Assembly (NCBI GenBank): GCA_947647735.1
Contig: CANSLJ010000029.1
Location: forward strand, 1-46,626
Source: an uncultured bacterium
Lineage (GTDB): Bacteria; Bacillota; Clostridia; Lachnospirales; Lachnospiraceae
DNA: 46,626 nt
Direction of reading: 5' to 3'
In this document: positions 7,614 to 26,810 of the stretch, piece by piece
How the letters are laid out: every line of letters begins with the position of its first letter
Numbering within the stretch: the stretch's first letter is position 1
Made by a program: the position numbers and the translations under genes
The notes under the pieces: generated by a model
Seen by the model: the letters and a program-made list of their open reading frames with translations, nothing else
Told to the model about the DNA's origin: nothing
Database searches by the model: none

Positions 7614-9002
7614 TTAAAACTCAAATTTATCCGCAAAGTACGCACCCAGTTCATCGATTGCAACACGCTCCTGCTCCATGGAGTCACGGAAACGTACTGT
7701 CACCTTGCCGTCTGTCTCGGAATCAAAATCATAGGTCACACAGAACGGCGTGCCGATCTCATCCTGTCTGCGGTATCTCTTACCGATATTTCCTCTGTCA
7801 TCAAACTCACAATTATATTTCTTGCTCAGGCTCGCATAGATCTTCTCCGCACCCTCGTTCAACTTCTTGGACAGCGGCAGCACACCGATCTTCACCGGTG
7901 CAAGAGCCGGATGGAAACGCAGAACAGTTCTCATATCACCGCCCTCCAGCTCCTCCTCGTCATAAGCCGCACAGAGGAATGCCAGAACCACACGGTCAGC
8001 GCCGAGGGACGGCTCGATAACATAGGGCACATATTTCTCGCCCTTGCTGTCATCAAAATAGCTCATATCCTCACCGGATACCTTCTGATGCTGTGTCAGG
8101 TCATAGTCTGTTCTGTCTGCGATGCCCCACAGTTCGCCCCAGCCGAAGGGGAATAAGAACTCGATGTCCGTAGTGCCCTTGGAATAGAAGCAGAGCTCCT
8201 CCTGGGCATGATCGCGGAGCCTCATCTCCTCCTCCTTCATGCCGAGAGACAGAAGCCAGTCACGGCAGAACCCTCTCCAGTACTGGAACCATTCCATATC
8301 TGTGCCGGGCTCACAGAAAAACTCCAACTCCATCTGTTCAAATTCTCTTGTACGGAACGTAAAGTTACCCGGTGTGATCTCGTTTCGGAAGGACTTACCG
8401 ATCTGGCCGATGCCGAAGGGCAGTTTTTTCCGGGAAGTTCTCTGTACATTTTTAAAGTTTACAAAAATACCCTGCGCTGTCTCGGGACGTAAGTAAACCG
8501 TGTTCTTCGCATCCTCGGTAACACCCTGGAATGTCTTGAACATCAGGTTAAACTGACGGATATCCGTGAAATTATGTTTGCCGCAGGACGGACAGGGTAC
8601 ATTGTGCTCCTCCACAAAATTCTTCATCTCTTCCTGAGAATAAGCGTCAATGGGTTTTTCCAGTTCAATGCCGTTTTCCTGCGCGTAATCCTCGATCAGC
8701 TTATCCGCACGGAAACGCTCCTTACATTCTTTACAGTCCATCAGAGGATCTGAGAAACCGCCCAGATGCCCGGAGGCAACCCATGTCTGGGGATTCATCA
8801 GGATAGCGCAGTCCACACCCACATTATAGGGATTTTCCGTGATGAACTTCTGCCACCATGCTTTTTTCACGTTATTTTTCAGTTCCACGCCCAGATTGCC
8901 GTAGTCCCATGTGTTGGCAAGCCCCCCATAAATTTCGGAACCGGGATATACAAACCCTCTTGCCTTGGCAAGCGCCACGATCTTTTCCATTGTTTTTTCC
9001 AT
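7614..9002 (-). CDS. glyS: Glycyl-tRNA synthetase, single-chain homodimeric type
   Basis: Charges tRNA-Gly. The 462-residue protein is the one-chain (eukaryote/archaea-like) class II GlyRS found in many Gram-positives, not the two-subunit GlyQ/GlyS form. Visible: N-terminal [20 protein letters not shown], the family signature [14 protein letters not shown], a CxxC...CPSCG zinc-like insertion, motif 2 ([11 protein letters not shown] followed by [14 protein letters not shown]), motif 3 region ([14 protein letters not shown]), and the C-terminal anticodon-binding domain ([13 protein letters not shown]). GGAG precedes the ATG. It sits between a lipoprotein gene (20 nt upstream) and alaS. No T-box leader is visible in front of the operon, so control by glycine or alanine starvation is not evident. 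Confidence 0.98.
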
Positions 9003-20368: not shown

Positions 20369-21634
20369 TTACTGCCTCTCTTTTTCCTTATTCTTCCATT
20401 CCTCGTACTCCCGCTTCTCTTCCTCCGACATCAGTATCGTATCATCCATTTCTTCCTCCATCTGACGTCTCTCTTCCTCACTCAGCGCTCTCTCAGCCGT
20501 CTGCGGGCCCGGATTCGGCATCGGCAGTTTTCCGCCTGCTCCCTGCACCGGATTCGGCACTGGCAGTTTTCCCTCCGCAGGGGCACCGCCCGGCATAACA
20601 GCCACCGGTCCTACCGGTACTTTCCTAAGCTCCCTCTTCGCCTTTTTCTTCTTCTCATGCTTTGCCAGCAAAAAGACGATCAAAAGCACCACCGCCAGTA
20701 TCACAAGCCAGATCACAATATAAGGTATATTGATAATGACACCGATCAGGAAATTCTCAATATCCTGTCCTGCCTCATACATATTCTCGGAAAAGCCGCT
20801 CCTGATCCTTCCCCAGGCGGTAGGCTCCTCCGCCGGCGTCAGCCTCTCCACCTCCTGAATGTCAAGATTGACTGTGCTGTAATTGATCTTATTGTCATAT
20901 GTACGGAGCTGGGACTCCATGCTCTCCAGCTCATATCTGACAGTCGCCAGCTTATCCTCCACCGTGATCAGATCCTCCACTGTCTCCGCCATCTCCATCA
21001 GCTCGAGAAGCCTCTCCTGTTCTGTCAGCAGTGCCTTTTTATGGCTCTCCAGATCCACATAGGCGAGCGTTACATCCTCCACACTCTGGGATTTGTGTGT
21101 GATATTGCTGCTCTCCTCCACCATCGAAACAAAACTTCCCAGTTTCTCCGCCGGTATCCTGATGGTCAGATAAGCACTCCTGCTTCCCATTCTGTTTCCA
21201 TATGCATCGACACCGCCGTTCCACTGATTGCTGCTCTCAATATAGCCGCCCAGCGCTGCGATCTGTCTCTCCAGATTCACCATCAGATCATCAAAATACT
21301 CCGTCTCCGCCGACACGTCCATGGTCGTGATCAGCTTCCGCCCCGCCCGAGGGTCCTCCGTTATCTCCTCCGCGGCCCCGTCTGTCACAGTGCCGTTCTC
21401 ACCTGCCGGCACTGCCTCCTCCGGCATGGCGTCCTCCACCTGCACAGCAGTTTCCTCCGCCGCATACTCGTACTCCCCGTAGCCCGCATCATAGAGATAA
21501 GCCTCCTGTGCCGCTGCGGGCGCGGCAGTATCCACCGCATATTCGTTCATCATACCCTTTGAGCTGCCGCAGCCCGCCAGTAAAGATGCCGTGAGCGCCG
21601 CCGTAAATAATAAACCTAAACTCTTCTTTTTCAT
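20369..21634 (-). CDS. DUF4349 lipoprotein
   Basis: A 421-residue surface protein. The N-terminus is a lipoprotein signal (LLFTAALTASLLAGC, Cys 22), followed by a Tyr/Glu/Ala-rich linker, the DUF4349 domain (RKLITTMDVSAETEYFDDL through ITHKSQSVEDVTLAYVDLES), a long coiled coil (HKKALLTEQERLLELMEMAE..., about 225-275), a C-terminal membrane helix (about 315-345) and a charged cytoplasmic tail rich in Arg/Lys/Glu. Being both lipidated and membrane-spanning is typical for the family; the function is unknown. The downstream 120 nt are purine-rich on this strand, and another frame there reads ETKKPEEENPESKKQ, so the tail may once have been longer. AGGAGG precedes the ATG. Two palindromic elements lie immediately upstream. 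Confidence 0.9.
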   Translation of the reverse strand: MKKKSLGLLFTAALTASLLAGCGSSKGMMNEYAVDTAAPAAAQEAYLYDAGYGEYEYAAEETAVQVEDAMPEEAVPAGENGTVTDGAAEEITEDPRAGRKLITTMDVSAETEYFDDLMVNLERQIAALGGYIESSNQWNGGVDAYGNRMGSRSAYLTIRIPAEKLGSFVSMVEESSNITHKSQSVEDVTLAYVDLESHKKALLTEQERLLELMEMAETVEDLITVEDKLATVRYELESMESQLRTYDNKINYSTVNLDIQEVERLTPAEEPTAWGRIRSGFSENMYEAGQDIENFLIGVIINIPYIVIWLVILAVVLLIVFLLAKHEKKKKAKRELRKVPVGPVAVMPGGAPAEGKLPVPNPVQGAGGKLPMPNPGPQTAERALSEEERRQMEEEMDDTILMSEEEKREYEEWKNKEKERQ

Positions 21635-21646
21635 AACAAACCTCCT

Positions 21647-21750
21647 ATTCCAGTTCCGTAAGTGTCCTGCCAGTACCGATTTCGGCAGAGAAATTTACGA
21701 CCGTTTCACGCTCATAAATTCTCTGGGCACTGTACGGACACTTACTGATT
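21647..21750 (-). repeat. Palindromic structured element, copy A
   Basis: About 104 bp that can fold into one long hairpin. The outer 10-bp helix pairs 21658-21667 (GTAAGTGTCC) with 21736-21745 (GGACACTTAC). A second helix pairs 21687-21697 with 21715-21724 (AGAGAAATTTA and TAAATTCTCT, one bulge). An intermediate CAGTGCC/GGTACTG helix pairs better in minus-strand RNA (G-U). Flanks ATTCCAGTTCCG and CTGATT are shared with copy B. It lies between the M16C peptidase stop and the DUF4349 gene start, so it would be in the leader of the latter. Confidence 0.7.
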
Positions 21751-21857
21751 CCAGTTCCGCATGAATCCTTCCAGCACACCTCAGCCGAAATTGATTTCCG
21801 GTCGTATATTCATACGTCCGTAACCCAATTTGTGCACTGTCCGGATTCATGCTGATT
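21748..21857 (-). repeat. Palindromic structured element, copy B
   Basis: The tandem neighbour of copy A, same layout with different stems. The outer helix pairs 21759-21768 (GCATGAATCC) with 21843-21852 (GGATTCATGC). The inner helix AAATTG (21788-21793) pairs with CAATTT (21826-21831). The 12-nt left flank is identical to copy A, and the right flank GCACTGTCCGG differs at one base. Because both arms differ from copy A while still pairing, the structure appears conserved. Copy B begins within the last bases of copy A. Confidence 0.7.
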
Positions 21858-21865
21858 TTTCCGGA

Positions 21866-24781
21866 TCAGCGGAACAACTGCTCCTTCCTCCCGAAGCCGT
21901 CCGCTTCCTTTATCTTATCCTCTCTGCCCAATACGCAGAGGCAGTCATCTGACAAAAAGGCTCTGATATGCTTTGCAAGGGCGCGTATGGATTCCACATC
22001 CACCGCCAATATCTCGTCGCGCTCCCTCTGCAGCTCCTCCTCCGTCTGTCCGGTGAGGTAGCCGCCCAGAGAAAAGTTTCCGATATCCTGAGGCGTCTTC
22101 GGCGTATCCAGCTCGCTGATCGCACCGATCAGATACTGTGTCAGTTCCTCCTCGTCTCCCTGCCAGTGCTCCACATAATCCGCCGCCGCCTCATAGACTG
22201 CCACGGTCTTTTCCAGATTGGGATCTCTGTAGGAGACAAAGTAACTCTCGCCGGTCTTTCCGAAGCTGCACATGCACCCGTAAGCGCCGCCCTTCACCCG
22301 CACATTGGTCCACAGATAATCATAGCCCATCATCACCCGCAAAACCCGCAGCGCACCGGTATAAGGAAGCCCCTTTGTGACAAAATTCCCCGCCCGGCAC
22401 ACATACTGCACCTGGGAAGCGGTCAAAAATCCCTCGTTCTTTTTCTCTGTCTGAGGACGATACTTCTCCTGCACGCCGTCGCACTCTCCGGTATACAGAT
22501 TTTCCTTCAGCTGTGCCACAAGCTCCGGCAGCTTCTCATACCCTTCCCTTGACGCCGTATAATCCACCAGCAGATTTTCCGGACGGAACAGGATCCTCAC
22601 AAGACGGTTCAGATTCACCGCCAGTTCCATCTTCCTCTCCTCAAAATGCTCCGCCAGATCCGCCACAAGCCGATACTGTGTCACACCGCCGATCTGCTCA
22701 TTGCAGGCAGCCGCATCGGAGATATAGGACAGGGCACGCATCGCTGAAACCGTATGCCCGCCGGACAACATTGCCGACTGCATCCTGGACTTGATCTCCT
22801 CCAGCAGTTCCTTCAGCCTCTTGTAATCCGCCCATTTCGTCTCCTTCATCATGATCAGGGCAAGCCTGAAAGCTTCCGGCAGCTTATCAAAAAGCACCTT
22901 CGCCTTCACATCAAACCGCCCCTTATAGTCCGACAGATCCGCCTTCGTATAGGTATTGGTCACACACGCCATACCGCCCGTCTCAATATGCACCTCATGG
23001 AACAGCTCGCCGTAGCTGTAACTGTCTGTATCGATCACGCCCATCATGTTCTTCAAAAGCCCCAGATAAGGGAACAGTTCCTCCGGCACGCGGGAGCAGT
23101 CAAAACTCAGTCTCAGATACCCGATCCCGTTGGTAAACAGCTCATGATATAAAACAGGAACCCCTGCCGCCTGATGCAGCTCGTTCACATACTTCTCCGC
23201 TTCCTTCCTGATATCCTTCCTTGTCAGATGCGGAATGCAGACAAGCGCCTCCGGCGTATCGCCCTCTTCCTGATACGCCTTTAACGCCTTCGTCTCCTCC
23301 ACGATACGCTCTATCTCTTCCTCTGAGAGCGTCTCCTTATAGGCCTGCAGCTTATCTGCGAGCGCTTTATCCCTTTTCGCTGTCAATCCCTTCTCCGGCA
23401 CCAGCGTCACAATACAGCCGTGTTCATTATCCAGAAGATATTTCCGGATCAGTTCCTCAAAATATCCCTCCTCGATCCTCCGCTTCAATACGGCAAAGGT
23501 TTCGTTCGCCTCCACATGGATAAACGGCTTTTTCTCATCGTAAAGCCAGGAATCCAGCATCTGCAGCCCGTACATAAGCCCCTTCGGATAGGAACCGAAA
23601 TCAGCCTCCCTGTGCTTGAACTCATAATAGTTCAGCCCCGCATACAAAGACTTCTTATCAATACCTTCCTTTGTCAGTTTTGTAAGTTCTCGTCTGTAAG
23701 TGTCCAGAAACTCCTGCTTTTGTTGCAGATCCGCATTTTTTGCGATCACGGAAAAATAAGTCTGCCGGATCCCCTCATCAAAAATGCTGTAGACCTCCGT
23801 TCCAATCCCCGCCTCGATCATCGCCTGCTTCAGCGGCGCCCCGGGCGTGGAACAAAGGGCGTAGTCCAGAATCTGGAACGCGATATAAAGCTCCGGATCA
23901 AGCGCGCTTCCCGCCACCTTGCTGATGGAAAGATAAGTGTTGCCCTCCTCCGATTCACCCTCGGAGATCGGATAGCTCTTCCGGATCTCCTTCACCTTCT
24001 CAAAAGGCTCCTGCCATCCGATCTCGGAATCCACTGCCAGAGGGTCAAATTTAGAAAGATACTCCCTGTCCAGAAACTCCAGCTTTTCCGTCATGTCCAT
24101 ATTGCCGTACAGATAAATATAGCTGTTGGAAGGATGATAATACCTTCTGTGGAAATCCAGGAATTTCTCATAAGTCAGCTCCGGGATCACCTCCGGATCC
24201 CCGCCGGACTCAAAACTGTAAGCCGTCTCCGGAAACAGAGAGTTCAAAATCTCCCGCTCCAGCACATCATCGGGAGAAGAAAACGCCCCCTTCATCTCAT
24301 TGTAGACCACGCCGTTCAACGTCAGCTCATCCTCCGGGGACTCCATCTCATAGTGCCAGCCCTCCTGCCTGAATATCTTCTCTTCCTTATAAATATTCGG
24401 ATAAAAAACCGCATCCAGATACACATGCATCAGATTCTGAAAATCCTTATCATTACAGCTCGCCACCGGATAAACCGTCTTATCCGGATAAGTCATCGCG
24501 TTCAAAAATGTATTCAGGCTCCCCTTCGCCAGCTCGATAAAGGGGTCCTTTACCGGAAACCGTTCCGAACCGCAGAGTACCGTATGCTCCACGATATGGG
24601 GTGAACCCGTGGAATCCACCGGTGGCGTCCGAAATCCGATATAAAACACCTTATTCTCCTCGTCATTCTCCATCAAAATGACGTGCGCCCCGGTCTTCTC
24701 ATGCCGCAGAACCGTCCCTCTGGAATTCAGCTCCGGAATATCCCTCACTTCAACTGTTTCATACCCGCTGTAATTTTTCAT
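21866..24781 (-). CDS. M16C zinc metallopeptidase (PreP/insulinase-like)
   Basis: A 971-residue peptidase of the presequence-protease branch of the insulinase family. The inverted zinc motif HIVEH lies at residues 62-66 (His62, Glu65, His66) inside the family block SPHIVEHTVLCGSERFPVKD, followed by LNTFLNAMTYPDKTVYPVAS, almost the pattern of mitochondrial PreP. Two M16 halves are linked by the M16C helical hairpin (around 480-540, Lys/Glu-rich), which closes the chamber. There is no signal peptide, so it probably degrades short peptides in the cytoplasm. Length fits the family (about 970-1000). GGAGG lies 8 nt before the ATG. It is monocistronic, with the two palindromic elements directly after its stop. 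Confidence 0.95.
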   Translation of the reverse strand: MKNYSGYETVEVRDIPELNSRGTVLRHEKTGAHVILMENDEENKVFYIGFRTPPVDSTGSPHIVEHTVLCGSERFPVKDPFIELAKGSLNTFLNAMTYPDKTVYPVASCNDKDFQNLMHVYLDAVFYPNIYKEEKIFRQEGWHYEMESPEDELTLNGVVYNEMKGAFSSPDDVLEREILNSLFPETAYSFESGGDPEVIPELTYEKFLDFHRRYYHPSNSYIYLYGNMDMTEKLEFLDREYLSKFDPLAVDSEIGWQEPFEKVKEIRKSYPISEGESEEGNTYLSISKVAGSALDPELYIAFQILDYALCSTPGAPLKQAMIEAGIGTEVYSIFDEGIRQTYFSVIAKNADLQQKQEFLDTYRRELTKLTKEGIDKKSLYAGLNYYEFKHREADFGSYPKGLMYGLQMLDSWLYDEKKPFIHVEANETFAVLKRRIEEGYFEELIRKYLLDNEHGCIVTLVPEKGLTAKRDKALADKLQAYKETLSEEEIERIVEETKALKAYQEEGDTPEALVCIPHLTRKDIRKEAEKYVNELHQAAGVPVLYHELFTNGIGYLRLSFDCSRVPEELFPYLGLLKNMMGVIDTDSYSYGELFHEVHIETGGMACVTNTYTKADLSDYKGRFDVKAKVLFDKLPEAFRLALIMMKETKWADYKRLKELLEEIKSRMQSAMLSGGHTVSAMRALSYISDAAACNEQIGGVTQYRLVADLAEHFEERKMELAVNLNRLVRILFRPENLLVDYTASREGYEKLPELVAQLKENLYTGECDGVQEKYRPQTEKKNEGFLTASQVQYVCRAGNFVTKGLPYTGALRVLRVMMGYDYLWTNVRVKGGAYGCMCSFGKTGESYFVSYRDPNLEKTVAVYEAAADYVEHWQGDEEELTQYLIGAISELDTPKTPQDIGNFSLGGYLTGQTEEELQRERDEILAVDVESIRALAKHIRAFLSDDCLCVLGREDKIKEADGFGRKEQLFR

Positions 24782-25073: not shown

Positions 25074-26810
25074 TTATTTTTCAACATCTTCCGCTGAACC
25101 GATCAGCACAGTCTTTCCCTGAAAAGCAAATCCATAGCTGCGAATACGTTCTGCCGGAATCCCCCGCGCAACAAGCCCTGCAGCATACTGTCTCTCCCTG
25201 ATCTGACGCAGAGCTGCCTCCACGGTATCCTCCAAAGACGCTTCTTTTCTGGGATTTCTCACTTTAAATTCAAGAATGATGGCATCATCATTCTTTATGA
25301 TCGCACTGTCCTTCCCCATACTTTTCGGTTCCAACACCACATCATACCGTCCAAAACCGCTTTCCCGATTCGATGTGATCAGATATTGCCCCTGCAGATC
25401 CACCATCAGTCCCAACACAAATCCATGATAGAATCGTTCCGGTTCCTCCCCGGATGGTTTCATCCCGGTATCAAAGTAACTAAATGTGTTAAGCGCCACA
25501 CGATTCATATATTCGTTCATAGCATCCAGATCACCAAGCAGCAGCGCCTTGATAAAATCATTATAATCCGCCCCGTTACCTTCAAACCATCCTCTCACCA
25601 GATTCTGAAACATACATTTCACTTCATAATTAGTGAGGTTCAGGTCATACATAACTTTTCCGCCATCTTCTATTTTCCCGATATCATCATAACTTATAAC
25701 TTTCAGGTAACCGCTGGCAAGCAGCAGGCTCCAGATTGCGGATTCACTCCGGTCTAACTGATCATAGACAATCTGTTCGTCAATAGGAACGCGGATCGTT
25801 CCTCCCCGAAGCAACACCTCAAACTGTTCCTTTATCCGCCCGCTTCCCTGCTGCAACAGCTTTCCCGCCAGAGAGTTGGAACTGGTATTAGCCCAGTAAG
25901 TGCCAAGTTTTCTTTTATCCAGATAATTTAAAATGGACCACGGGTTGTAAATATCCCTGTGCTGCCCGAATACAAATCCATCATACCAATGCTTCACCTG
26001 TTCTTTTTCCTCAGAAAGCCCACACTCTTCCAGTGCTGCAAATACCTCATCTTCCGTAAATCCAAAAGACTCTGCATATTTATCGGATGTAGCTGTCACC
26101 ACCTCTAGATTATTTAAATCAGAGAAAACAGACTCTTTACTGACTCGTGTGATCCCCGTCATGATCGCCCGTTCCAACCATGGATTTGTTTTAAAAGAGG
26201 AATTAAAAAGACTTCTCGTAAAACTTACCAACTCCTCCCAATAACCGGTTACGTAAGCCTCCTGCATCGGTGTATCATACTCATCTAACAGAACAATAAC
26301 TTTTCTGCCATAATAACGGTACAGATAGTCACACAACTTGTGAACCGCCATCGCAGCAACCACCTCCGACATTTCCGGACAGACAGAATCAAAGAATTTG
26401 CGGTCTGCCCCGGTCATACAGCCGCTATCTGCCAGAAAGTGATTCTGATTATATAAATCCGCAATGATCTGACACATCCTTATCTTAGTATTCTGATAAT
26501 CCCGCTCCTTCACATTGGCGAAGGACAGACTGATCACCGGATATGTCCCCTGCAGCTGTCTGTATTTCTCCTCTTTCCATATGGACAACCCCTCAAACAA
26601 ATCTCCGCGTCCCGCATATTTGACAGAGAAAAACTGTTCCATCATGCTCATATTCAGTGTCTTGCCAAAACGGCGCGGACGAGTAATCAATGTAACCTTA
26701 TCCTCACTCTCCCACCACTCTTTAATAAAGAAAGTCTTATCAATATAAAAACACCGCTTTGTAATGATCTCTTCAAAATCCTGTACTCCGATCGCAACTG
26801 TCCTTGCCAT
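25074..26810 (-). CDS. AAA-ATPase-like protein with C-terminal PD-(D/E)XK nuclease-like domain
   Basis: A 578-residue member of the large family annotated as AAA-ATPase plus DUF1703-type nuclease. The N-terminal block is typical: IGVQDFEEIITKRCFYIDKT, then Walker A variant TRPRRFGKTLN (43-53) and Walker B VIVLLDEYDTPM. The C-terminal part has a PD-(D/E)XK signature (GFGRYDVVLEP followed by AIILEFKV). These proteins are abundant and often multicopy in gut anaerobes. Their biological role is not established; a mobile or defence-related function has been suggested for them only by analogy. A good promoter (26853-26881), GGGGGCG ribosome binding site and terminator make it a complete single-gene unit. 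Confidence 0.9.
   Translation of the reverse strand: MARTVAIGVQDFEEIITKRCFYIDKTFFIKEWWESEDKVTLITRPRRFGKTLNMSMMEQFFSVKYAGRGDLFEGLSIWKEEKYRQLQGTYPVISLSFANVKERDYQNTKIRMCQIIADLYNQNHFLADSGCMTGADRKFFDSVCPEMSEVVAAMAVHKLCDYLYRYYGRKVIVLLDEYDTPMQEAYVTGYWEELVSFTRSLFNSSFKTNPWLERAIMTGITRVSKESVFSDLNNLEVVTATSDKYAESFGFTEDEVFAALEECGLSEEKEQVKHWYDGFVFGQHRDIYNPWSILNYLDKRKLGTYWANTSSNSLAGKLLQQGSGRIKEQFEVLLRGGTIRVPIDEQIVYDQLDRSESAIWSLLLASGYLKVISYDDIGKIEDGGKVMYDLNLTNYEVKCMFQNLVRGWFEGNGADYNDFIKALLLGDLDAMNEYMNRVALNTFSYFDTGMKPSGEEPERFYHGFVLGLMVDLQGQYLITSNRESGFGRYDVVLEPKSMGKDSAIIKNDDAIILEFKVRNPRKEASLEDTVEAALRQIRERQYAAGLVARGIPAERIRSYGFAFQGKTVLIGSAEDVEK

Follow-up and report, generated by a model that had tools for sequence, protein, structure and literature searches.

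Dispersed hairpin elements in sense orientation upstream of Shine-Dalgarno sequences in a Lachnospiraceae genome and its relatives

What are two neighbouring palindromes, alike in their flanks and different in the letters of their arms, doing between two genes of a gut bacterium? The question arises from a 46,626-nucleotide stretch of a Lachnospiraceae genome (hereafter the window), in which a sequence-only reading had pointed out two tandem copies, A and B, and had proposed that either structure is under selection or a palindromic mobile unit has been copied repeatedly. We followed the two copies through their own genome, their genus and their family, and weighed what kind of element they could be.

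Two tandem hairpins and the family they belong to

Both palindromes are present where they had been placed, and both are full-length members of one family. Copy A occupies 21646..21748 on the minus strand (covariance model R1, 105.9 bits, E 7.3e-26 in its own genome), and copy B, which has a longer apical stem, lies upstream of it in a head-to-tail tandem at 21747..21855, also on the minus strand (90.1 bits, E 2.2e-21). Read on that strand, sequence and folding place the outer stem of A between the 5' arm GTAAGTGTCC (21736..21745) and the 3' arm GGACACTTAC (21658..21667), and that of B between GCATGAATCC (21843..21852) and GGATTCATGC (21759..21768). As had been claimed, the outer arms differ between the copies and are perfectly complementary over 10 bp in each, and the inner helices differ yet still pair. 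The common flanks are likewise real: on the plus strand both copies carry (T/G)ATTCCAGTTCC on one side and CTGATT on the other. The 12-nt sequence described as a left flank is indeed common to the copies; its place is better given as the 3' tail GGAACTGGAATA/C on the minus strand, conserved and unpaired, which reads GGAACTGGAATA in A (21646..21657; columns 104-115 of alignment A1) and GGAACTGGAATC in B (21747..21758; alignment A1).

Directly 3' of the tail of A, sequence reading finds a Shine-Dalgarno (SD) motif, GGAGG (21641..21645, minus strand), followed by the DUF4349 gene (20369..21634, minus strand; PF14257, E 2.7e-64), whose ATG lies 11 nt past the tail. On the other side, the stop codon of an M16C (PreP-type) peptidase gene (21866..24781, minus strand; PF08367, PF22516 and PF05193) is 10 nt ahead of copy B. 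The pair thus lies in the minus-strand leader of the DUF4349 gene, as had been noted, and this leader is moreover an intercistronic gap between two minus-strand genes; the sequence-only reading had not seen that the copies are in sense, that they dock at the SD or that the site is intercistronic. Further along the window (25074-26810, minus strand) lies an AAA-ATPase_like and PDDEXK_9 protein (PF09820, PF08011), and at another locus (L013) sequence reading shows a protein with a similar-looking start 3' of an element copy.

The long nested hairpins also stand up to shuffling. Folded on the minus strand, A reaches -47.1 kcal/mol (z -8.0) and B -42.0 kcal/mol (z -6.3), and on the plus strand the z values are -4.4 and -5.5; none of 200 shuffles folded as well as either native copy, on either strand. 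The functional strand is the minus strand, which is the coding strand of the DUF4349 gene. Judging by similarity, A and B are probably not sister duplicates: they are outside the 30 closest of 946 pairs of copies in their own genome, and a copy on another contig matches the inner part of A at 86% identity.

The own genome (4.1 Mb in 63 contigs) holds 51 blastn matches to the A/B pair. R1, which was built from 28 of its copies (alignment A1), finds 85 matches there at E<=1, of which 45 are full length at 76 bits or more and the remainder lower-scoring, shortened or antisense. The element is about 105 nt long, and the genomes of some gut bacteria carry dozens of copies; an early count of 67 elements includes one doubtful element (L069, in genome G035). 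In 5' to 3' order on the coding strand come, after what is usually AA, [A/T]CAG and the first arm of an outer stem of 9-10 bp. The inner part consists of a helix around ACAGYGC and an apical hairpin around TTTACAGACG..CGGCTGGAAA, and past the second arm lie the tail GGAACTGGAATA and then the SD. Each of the 28 aligned copies begins its outer stem with GCA or GTA; the remaining letters of the stem are free. The 5' flank is rich in A, with A at position -2 in 80 of 84 copies and at -1 in 77 of 84. The closest pair of copies on different contigs, ahead of genes that we take to be kdgK and serA, is identical at 99 of 105 positions inside the element and at 8 of 20 positions in each flank, and two of its six differences together form one compensated stem change. 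The element is a dispersed, discrete unit with sharp ends.

Membership of a known RNA family was examined with 4227 Rfam families, none of which matched anywhere in the window above its gathering threshold; ten loci with copies from six genomes gave no match either. The sole match in the A/B region at a permissive threshold was the snoRNA GlsR10, at chance level (13.6 bits against a required 75). No description of it was found in the literature, including the available text of PMC3733652, PMC2267715 and PMC3446304, and the family is apparently undescribed so far.

Conserved pairing, sense orientation and docking at the Shine-Dalgarno sequence

Among the 28 copies of A1, 94.7% of 867 pair cells pair, and 98.9% of those in the outer helix. 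Cells in which both partners have changed number 178, compared with 63.6 in shuffles, and four of five measures exceed all 500 shuffles, the fifth (further pair types) being reached by 15 of the 500. The same architecture was found in 26 copies from another genus (genome G021), which were picked by R1 and then aligned and folded anew: 97.4% of 701 cells pair, double changes number 68 compared with 14.3, and all five measures lie above all shuffles. Both sets of pair counts were taken on the same alignments that yielded the structures; slid partners, used as a control, pair in 28 to 53% of cells. Pairing is hence conserved among relatives in both genera with many double changes, and the proposal of selection for structure is supported.

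The copies are also remarkably uniform in where they sit. We assembled 156 distinct copies, comprising 44 from the own genome, 35 from G021 and 77 from congeners after removal of duplicates. These sets, which also served for the outer stem and SD analyses, come from the best 86 of 112 and the best 90 of 112 model matches, those dropped being mostly shortened, partial or antisense. By plain count, what follows the tail within 45 nt is a start codon in sense or another copy in 152 of the 156. In a first pass such a start codon was seen in 41 of 44 copies of the own genome, 28 of 35 of G021 and 56 of 77 of congeners; 1, 7 and 12 others, respectively, had another copy directly behind them. When the remaining 11 were re-read, five had a start within 16 nt that had been hidden by a short stretch or the end of a locus, two preceded another copy, and two had starts at 11 and 13 nt that open short reading frames (45 and 33 codons). 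Of the two copies then left, L021 has a start at 68 nt, behind a second tail, and L324, with a similar flank, has none in 90 nt.

An SD-like motif stands within 25 nt of the tail in 37 of 40 own, 26 of 27 G021 and 60 of 62 congener non-tandem copies. Upstream, a co-directional ORF ends within 60 nt in 34 of 44 own and 15 of 35 G021 copies; for congeners, many of whose copies lie in short stretches, the figure is 31 of 77. The upstream ORF ends inside the element in 3, 1 and 3 copies, respectively. The downstream genes are presumably purM, asd, nusA, argB, kdgK, serA, rplF, rpsN, purA and others, as named by sequence reading, and look unrelated; copies in other genera precede what we take, on the same basis, to be rplF, rpsN, purA, galE and purM. 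The copies lie in sense orientation and dock at the SD of the next gene.

What the hairpin does to that SD was modelled by folding the leaders of those copies that have an SD-like motif and flanks of sufficient length. In 35 own leaders the mean unpaired probability of the SD is 0.695 with the native hairpin, 0.695 with the hairpin removed and 0.614 with it shuffled (p 0.002, native versus shuffled). These predictions suggest that the hairpin seals itself and costs the SD nothing, an effect that is modest in size, and we take this as one reason why copies persist between genes.

The explanation that we consider, on balance, probable is that A and B are non-autonomous, dispersed mobile hairpins in co-directional gene gaps, tolerated because as RNA they fold on themselves and leave the SD open. 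Units of about 105 nt would spread, in sense, into gaps between co-directional genes, where they would lie immediately 5' of the SD; as part of the mRNA, each would fold into one closed long hairpin. With an outer stem that is mostly free in sequence but must pair, the insert would be sealed off and the SD as open as at an uninserted site, and tolerance of the sealed insert would let copies persist in operons. The tail GGAACTGGAA on both sides would allow tandem duplication and hairpin loss, leaving tails and shrunken hairpins behind. An insulating role of the hairpin may be inferred from the modelled folding, and the copies presumably arise by transposition and are co-transcribed. Against this explanation, the result for the SD is weak in the second genus, where 27 G021 leaders gave 0.587 native, 0.551 with the hairpin removed and 0.545 shuffled (p 0.06).

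Turnover at orthologous sites and what acts on the stems

If copies move, orthologous sites should differ in whether they hold one, and they do. The comparison took 12 genes that carry a copy in the own genome; of 83 DNA matches reported, 70, in 8 congeners, were used as orthologous leaders and scored by the covariance model at E<=1 (two further query genes, one without a match and one with a single weak match, are outside the 70). A full copy (at least 50 bits) is present in 11 leaders and a shortened or degenerate one (18 to 38 bits) in 7; the other 52 are without a match, and some of these show a bare tail by eye. A degenerate tail motif had been tried as a site classifier and was rejected in favour of covariance scoring, since it made many false tail calls inside upstream genes. 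Scattered intergenic copies and empty orthologous sites are both found, and the proposal of a repeatedly copied palindromic mobile unit is supported as well. At the DUF4349 site itself, one locus (L087) has a single copy with arms GTAAGTATCC/GGATACTTAC, which differ from those of A by a compensated change, and another (L088) has two copies with poorly matched arms; a degraded copy remains in L089, only a tail in L090 and no copy in L092. In L091 a copy lies between direct repeats TGCGGAACTGGAA, and one such unit makes the difference between this leader and that of L090. In two related genomes (G005 and G008), 9 of 13 G005 loci that were read have the same site, with a match, in G008, and one such shared pair (L371/L368) differs by loss of the inner hairpin.

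Other inserts occur at these sites too. In the DUF4349 leader of L092 (about 8590-8675 of JAETSN010000043.1) the element is replaced by an unrelated insert, CCGGACCATCGCGC..CGCACGAGAATAGGAGG, which also ends at the SD and has no convincing Rfam match. In G303 (L386, L387 and perhaps L384) a second, smaller hairpin, for example AAGCCCAGCAGAGCTGGGCTC, adjoins the element in or near a GGAACT/GGAATT tail, as if a second short palindrome shared the sites of the element there. Upstream of apgM in G003 (L225), a long inverted repeat of another kind, GGGAGGAAAATCAAATCCTC .. GAGGATTTGATTTTCCTCCC, lies in the same intercistronic region.

Turnover need not be recent. Inner identity reaches 90% in only 4 of the 946 own pairs (two pairs in tandem, a third separated by 1.3 kb and the fourth split between contigs), and this lack of a burst of near-identical copies suggests that transposition is slow or old. 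It also counts against the mobile-hairpin explanation, to which the filling of sites in an ancestor, followed by losses, is an alternative.

The distribution is narrow. Within the genus, matches are strong in 7 of 9 genomes, with one weak match in G004 and none in G002. Across the family, 10 of 397 genomes, in 9 of 334 genera, have a match, two of them a single weak one; ten candidates were scored per genome in this survey, so that its copy numbers are lower bounds. In the class, the own genome was the only match among 391 genomes under the stricter filters used for large sets, and 74 era-region loci from more distant relatives (L093-L166, 1.34 Mb) gave no match at E<=0.01. In copies from other genera the GGAACT core of the tail is mostly kept, and the remainder varies (CAAA, TAAA, AAAA).

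These observations bear on a rival reading, in which the element is a cis-regulatory RNA: its inner hairpin would be bound by a host factor, such as a protein, through which the downstream cistron is controlled in its translation or its stability, and the copies would form a mobile regulon over dozens of operons. Sense orientation and a place 5' of the SD would suit such a role, as would a conserved structure with compensatory changes. The inner core is itself conserved: one pair is G.U in 24 of 28 own copies, one position is a purine-purine mismatch in 28 of 28 own and 25 of 26 G021 copies, and an apical motif resembling ATTTACAGACGC..GCGGCTGGAAAT is common to the two genera despite a differing middle stem. 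Such apical conservation asks for more than passive folding and in this respect speaks against the explanation that we prefer. The downstream genes, however, look unrelated as judged by reading, the gene sets differ between species, with 52 of 70 orthologous leaders lacking a match, and G002, of the same genus, has no copy at all. We regard the regulatory reading as possible but rather doubtful. The GGA motifs of the tail prompted a look at CsrA in particular. Of 15 genomes, 14 have a match to it, G002 and G004 among them; as it is present in genomes with no copy or one weak copy, its occurrence speaks neither for nor against CsrA control.

A different reading dispenses with selection altogether: template switching in a DNA hairpin at replication (quasi-palindrome correction) would keep the arms complementary, and the covariation would be a mutational artefact. 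It draws on the outer stem, whose nine pairs in the 156 distinct, related copies give 1404 cells, of which 1285 are Watson-Crick, 35 G.U, 7 A.C and 77 other; the arm finder chose the tail length that gave most pairs and so favours pairing. The first three positions are nearly fixed, and each of positions 4 to 9 shows at least three Watson-Crick pair types. This fast change with little G.U, and left arms that are nearly random (5.6 of 9 positions matching on average, in 80 own pairs whose inner parts are 80-90% identical), are what correction could produce. On the sense strand, though, G.U exceeds A.C five to one. An A.C on that strand is a G.T on the other, so the excess points to the sense strand, whereas correction in DNA should be strand-blind. 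The fixed mismatch also survives inside the stem, and the inner hairpin holds many wobble pairs. Correction of the arms at the DNA level is rejected as the whole explanation on the strand bias and the persistent mismatch, and we hold the purely mutational reading to be distinctly improbable, although arm correction may act together with selection on the outer arms. Pairing is kept, with a wobble bias towards the sense strand, and from these patterns the element looks to have been selected as a sense RNA.

Possible means of movement and comparison with known repeats

Short palindromes that are intergenic, numerous and partly in tandem recall REP-type elements moved on single-stranded DNA by an IS200/IS605-like Y1 (RAYT) transposase. 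The presence of Y1 genes does not track the copies: there are no matches in G001, G005 and G021, all rich in copies, a single 33.8-bit fragment in the own genome (G000), and Y1 does match in six genomes where the element does not (G011, G013, G020, G023, G032 and G036). The foot of the hairpin is CAGCA or CAGTA in the 28 aligned copies and never CAGTAG, so that a GTAG foot is found in 0 of 28, and orientation follows the gene. An origin as a REP element is thus very unlikely. The last reading, an intrinsic terminator or attenuator, possibly of antisense transcripts, could appeal to the plus strand of B, where a hairpin precedes TGATTTTT, and to the A-rich 5' flank, which is T-rich on the antisense strand, yet it is scarcely credible, since a scan of either strand of A and B gave no site (with loops of 3-8 only, so that a long hairpin could be missed), the sense strand has no T run behind the hairpin, and A-rich sequence past a stop codon is ordinary.

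Reverse transcriptase was rejected as the mover, having no match in the carriers G001, G008, G021 and G205, so that no mobilising enzyme was found among the two kinds searched, Y1 transposase and reverse transcriptase. Insertion has left no general trace either. Of 33 clean cases, 10 have the last four bases of the element again in the 12-nt left flank, near the 7.7 (sd 2.2) expected from shuffling, and a target duplication AATA was rejected accordingly. The serA site is an exception: in G007 (L233 and L079), 25 nt of the end of the upstream gene, with an SD-like GAGGAGGAG, are repeated beyond two tandem copies, and a diverged version of this repeat is present in the own genome. The repeat may give serA its SD back in G007.

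How does the element compare with repeats already described? The repeats bcr1-bcr18 of the Bacillus cereus group are, according to the available text of PMC3446304, dispersed and confined to one group; about half turn up in transcripts, either within UTRs or between the genes of operons, and bcr10 and bcr18 have conserved structure in 5' UTRs. The element resembles them in dispersal, in restriction to one bacterial group and in its operon and UTR location, and differs in SD docking and fixed sense orientation, which that text does not describe for bcr repeats; the comparison is by description. RUP, NEMIS and ERIC are among the bacterial MITEs treated in the available part of PMC3733652, and share with the element a short, non-coding nature and a frequent place beside coding sequences. 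The element is non-coding and dispersed and has empty orthologous sites, as MITEs do, but it has no conserved terminal inverted repeat, its ends pairing within a copy and differing between copies, and target site duplication was not found overall, the serA site excepted. BOX is a further bacterial MITE. With GTAG/CGTC REPs the element shares palindromy, an intergenic place and G-T pairs in the stems, as far as these are set out in the accessible text of PMC3733652; at about 105 nt it is longer than the 20-40 bp given there for REPs, and it lacks both the GTAG foot and the association with Y1 genes. Like riboswitch and protein-binding leaders in Rfam, it is a structured RNA that immediately precedes the SD and some of whose unpaired and inner positions are conserved, but it has no Rfam match, no common downstream pathway that we could see, and high turnover. 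The element works like a MITE-type or bcr-type repeat living in mRNA, and it fails the tested features of MITEs (fixed inverted ends, target duplication) and REPs (tag, RAYT).

A bolder possibility, which we rate as unlikely, is that of an RNA-level mobile element or regulon: a unit of about 105 nt that inserts only in sense at the SD end of gaps, without a dedicated genomic transposase or target duplication, and then serves before dozens of housekeeping genes either as a self-sealing, nearly sequence-free insulator or as a translation switch read by a protein. If that were true, orientation and target would follow from the mRNA and not from the DNA.

Dispersed repeats in bacteria are in many cases linked to a transposase and sited where harm is small. 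This element keeps one orientation and sits between genes at the start signal of the following gene, a sensitive place, with stem letters that change while staying paired. It offers a natural test of how an insert between translated genes is tolerated or used, and of spread without a recognised mobiliser. It would be a new RNA family for Rfam, and with dozens of copies per genome its structure and evolution could be resolved in detail.
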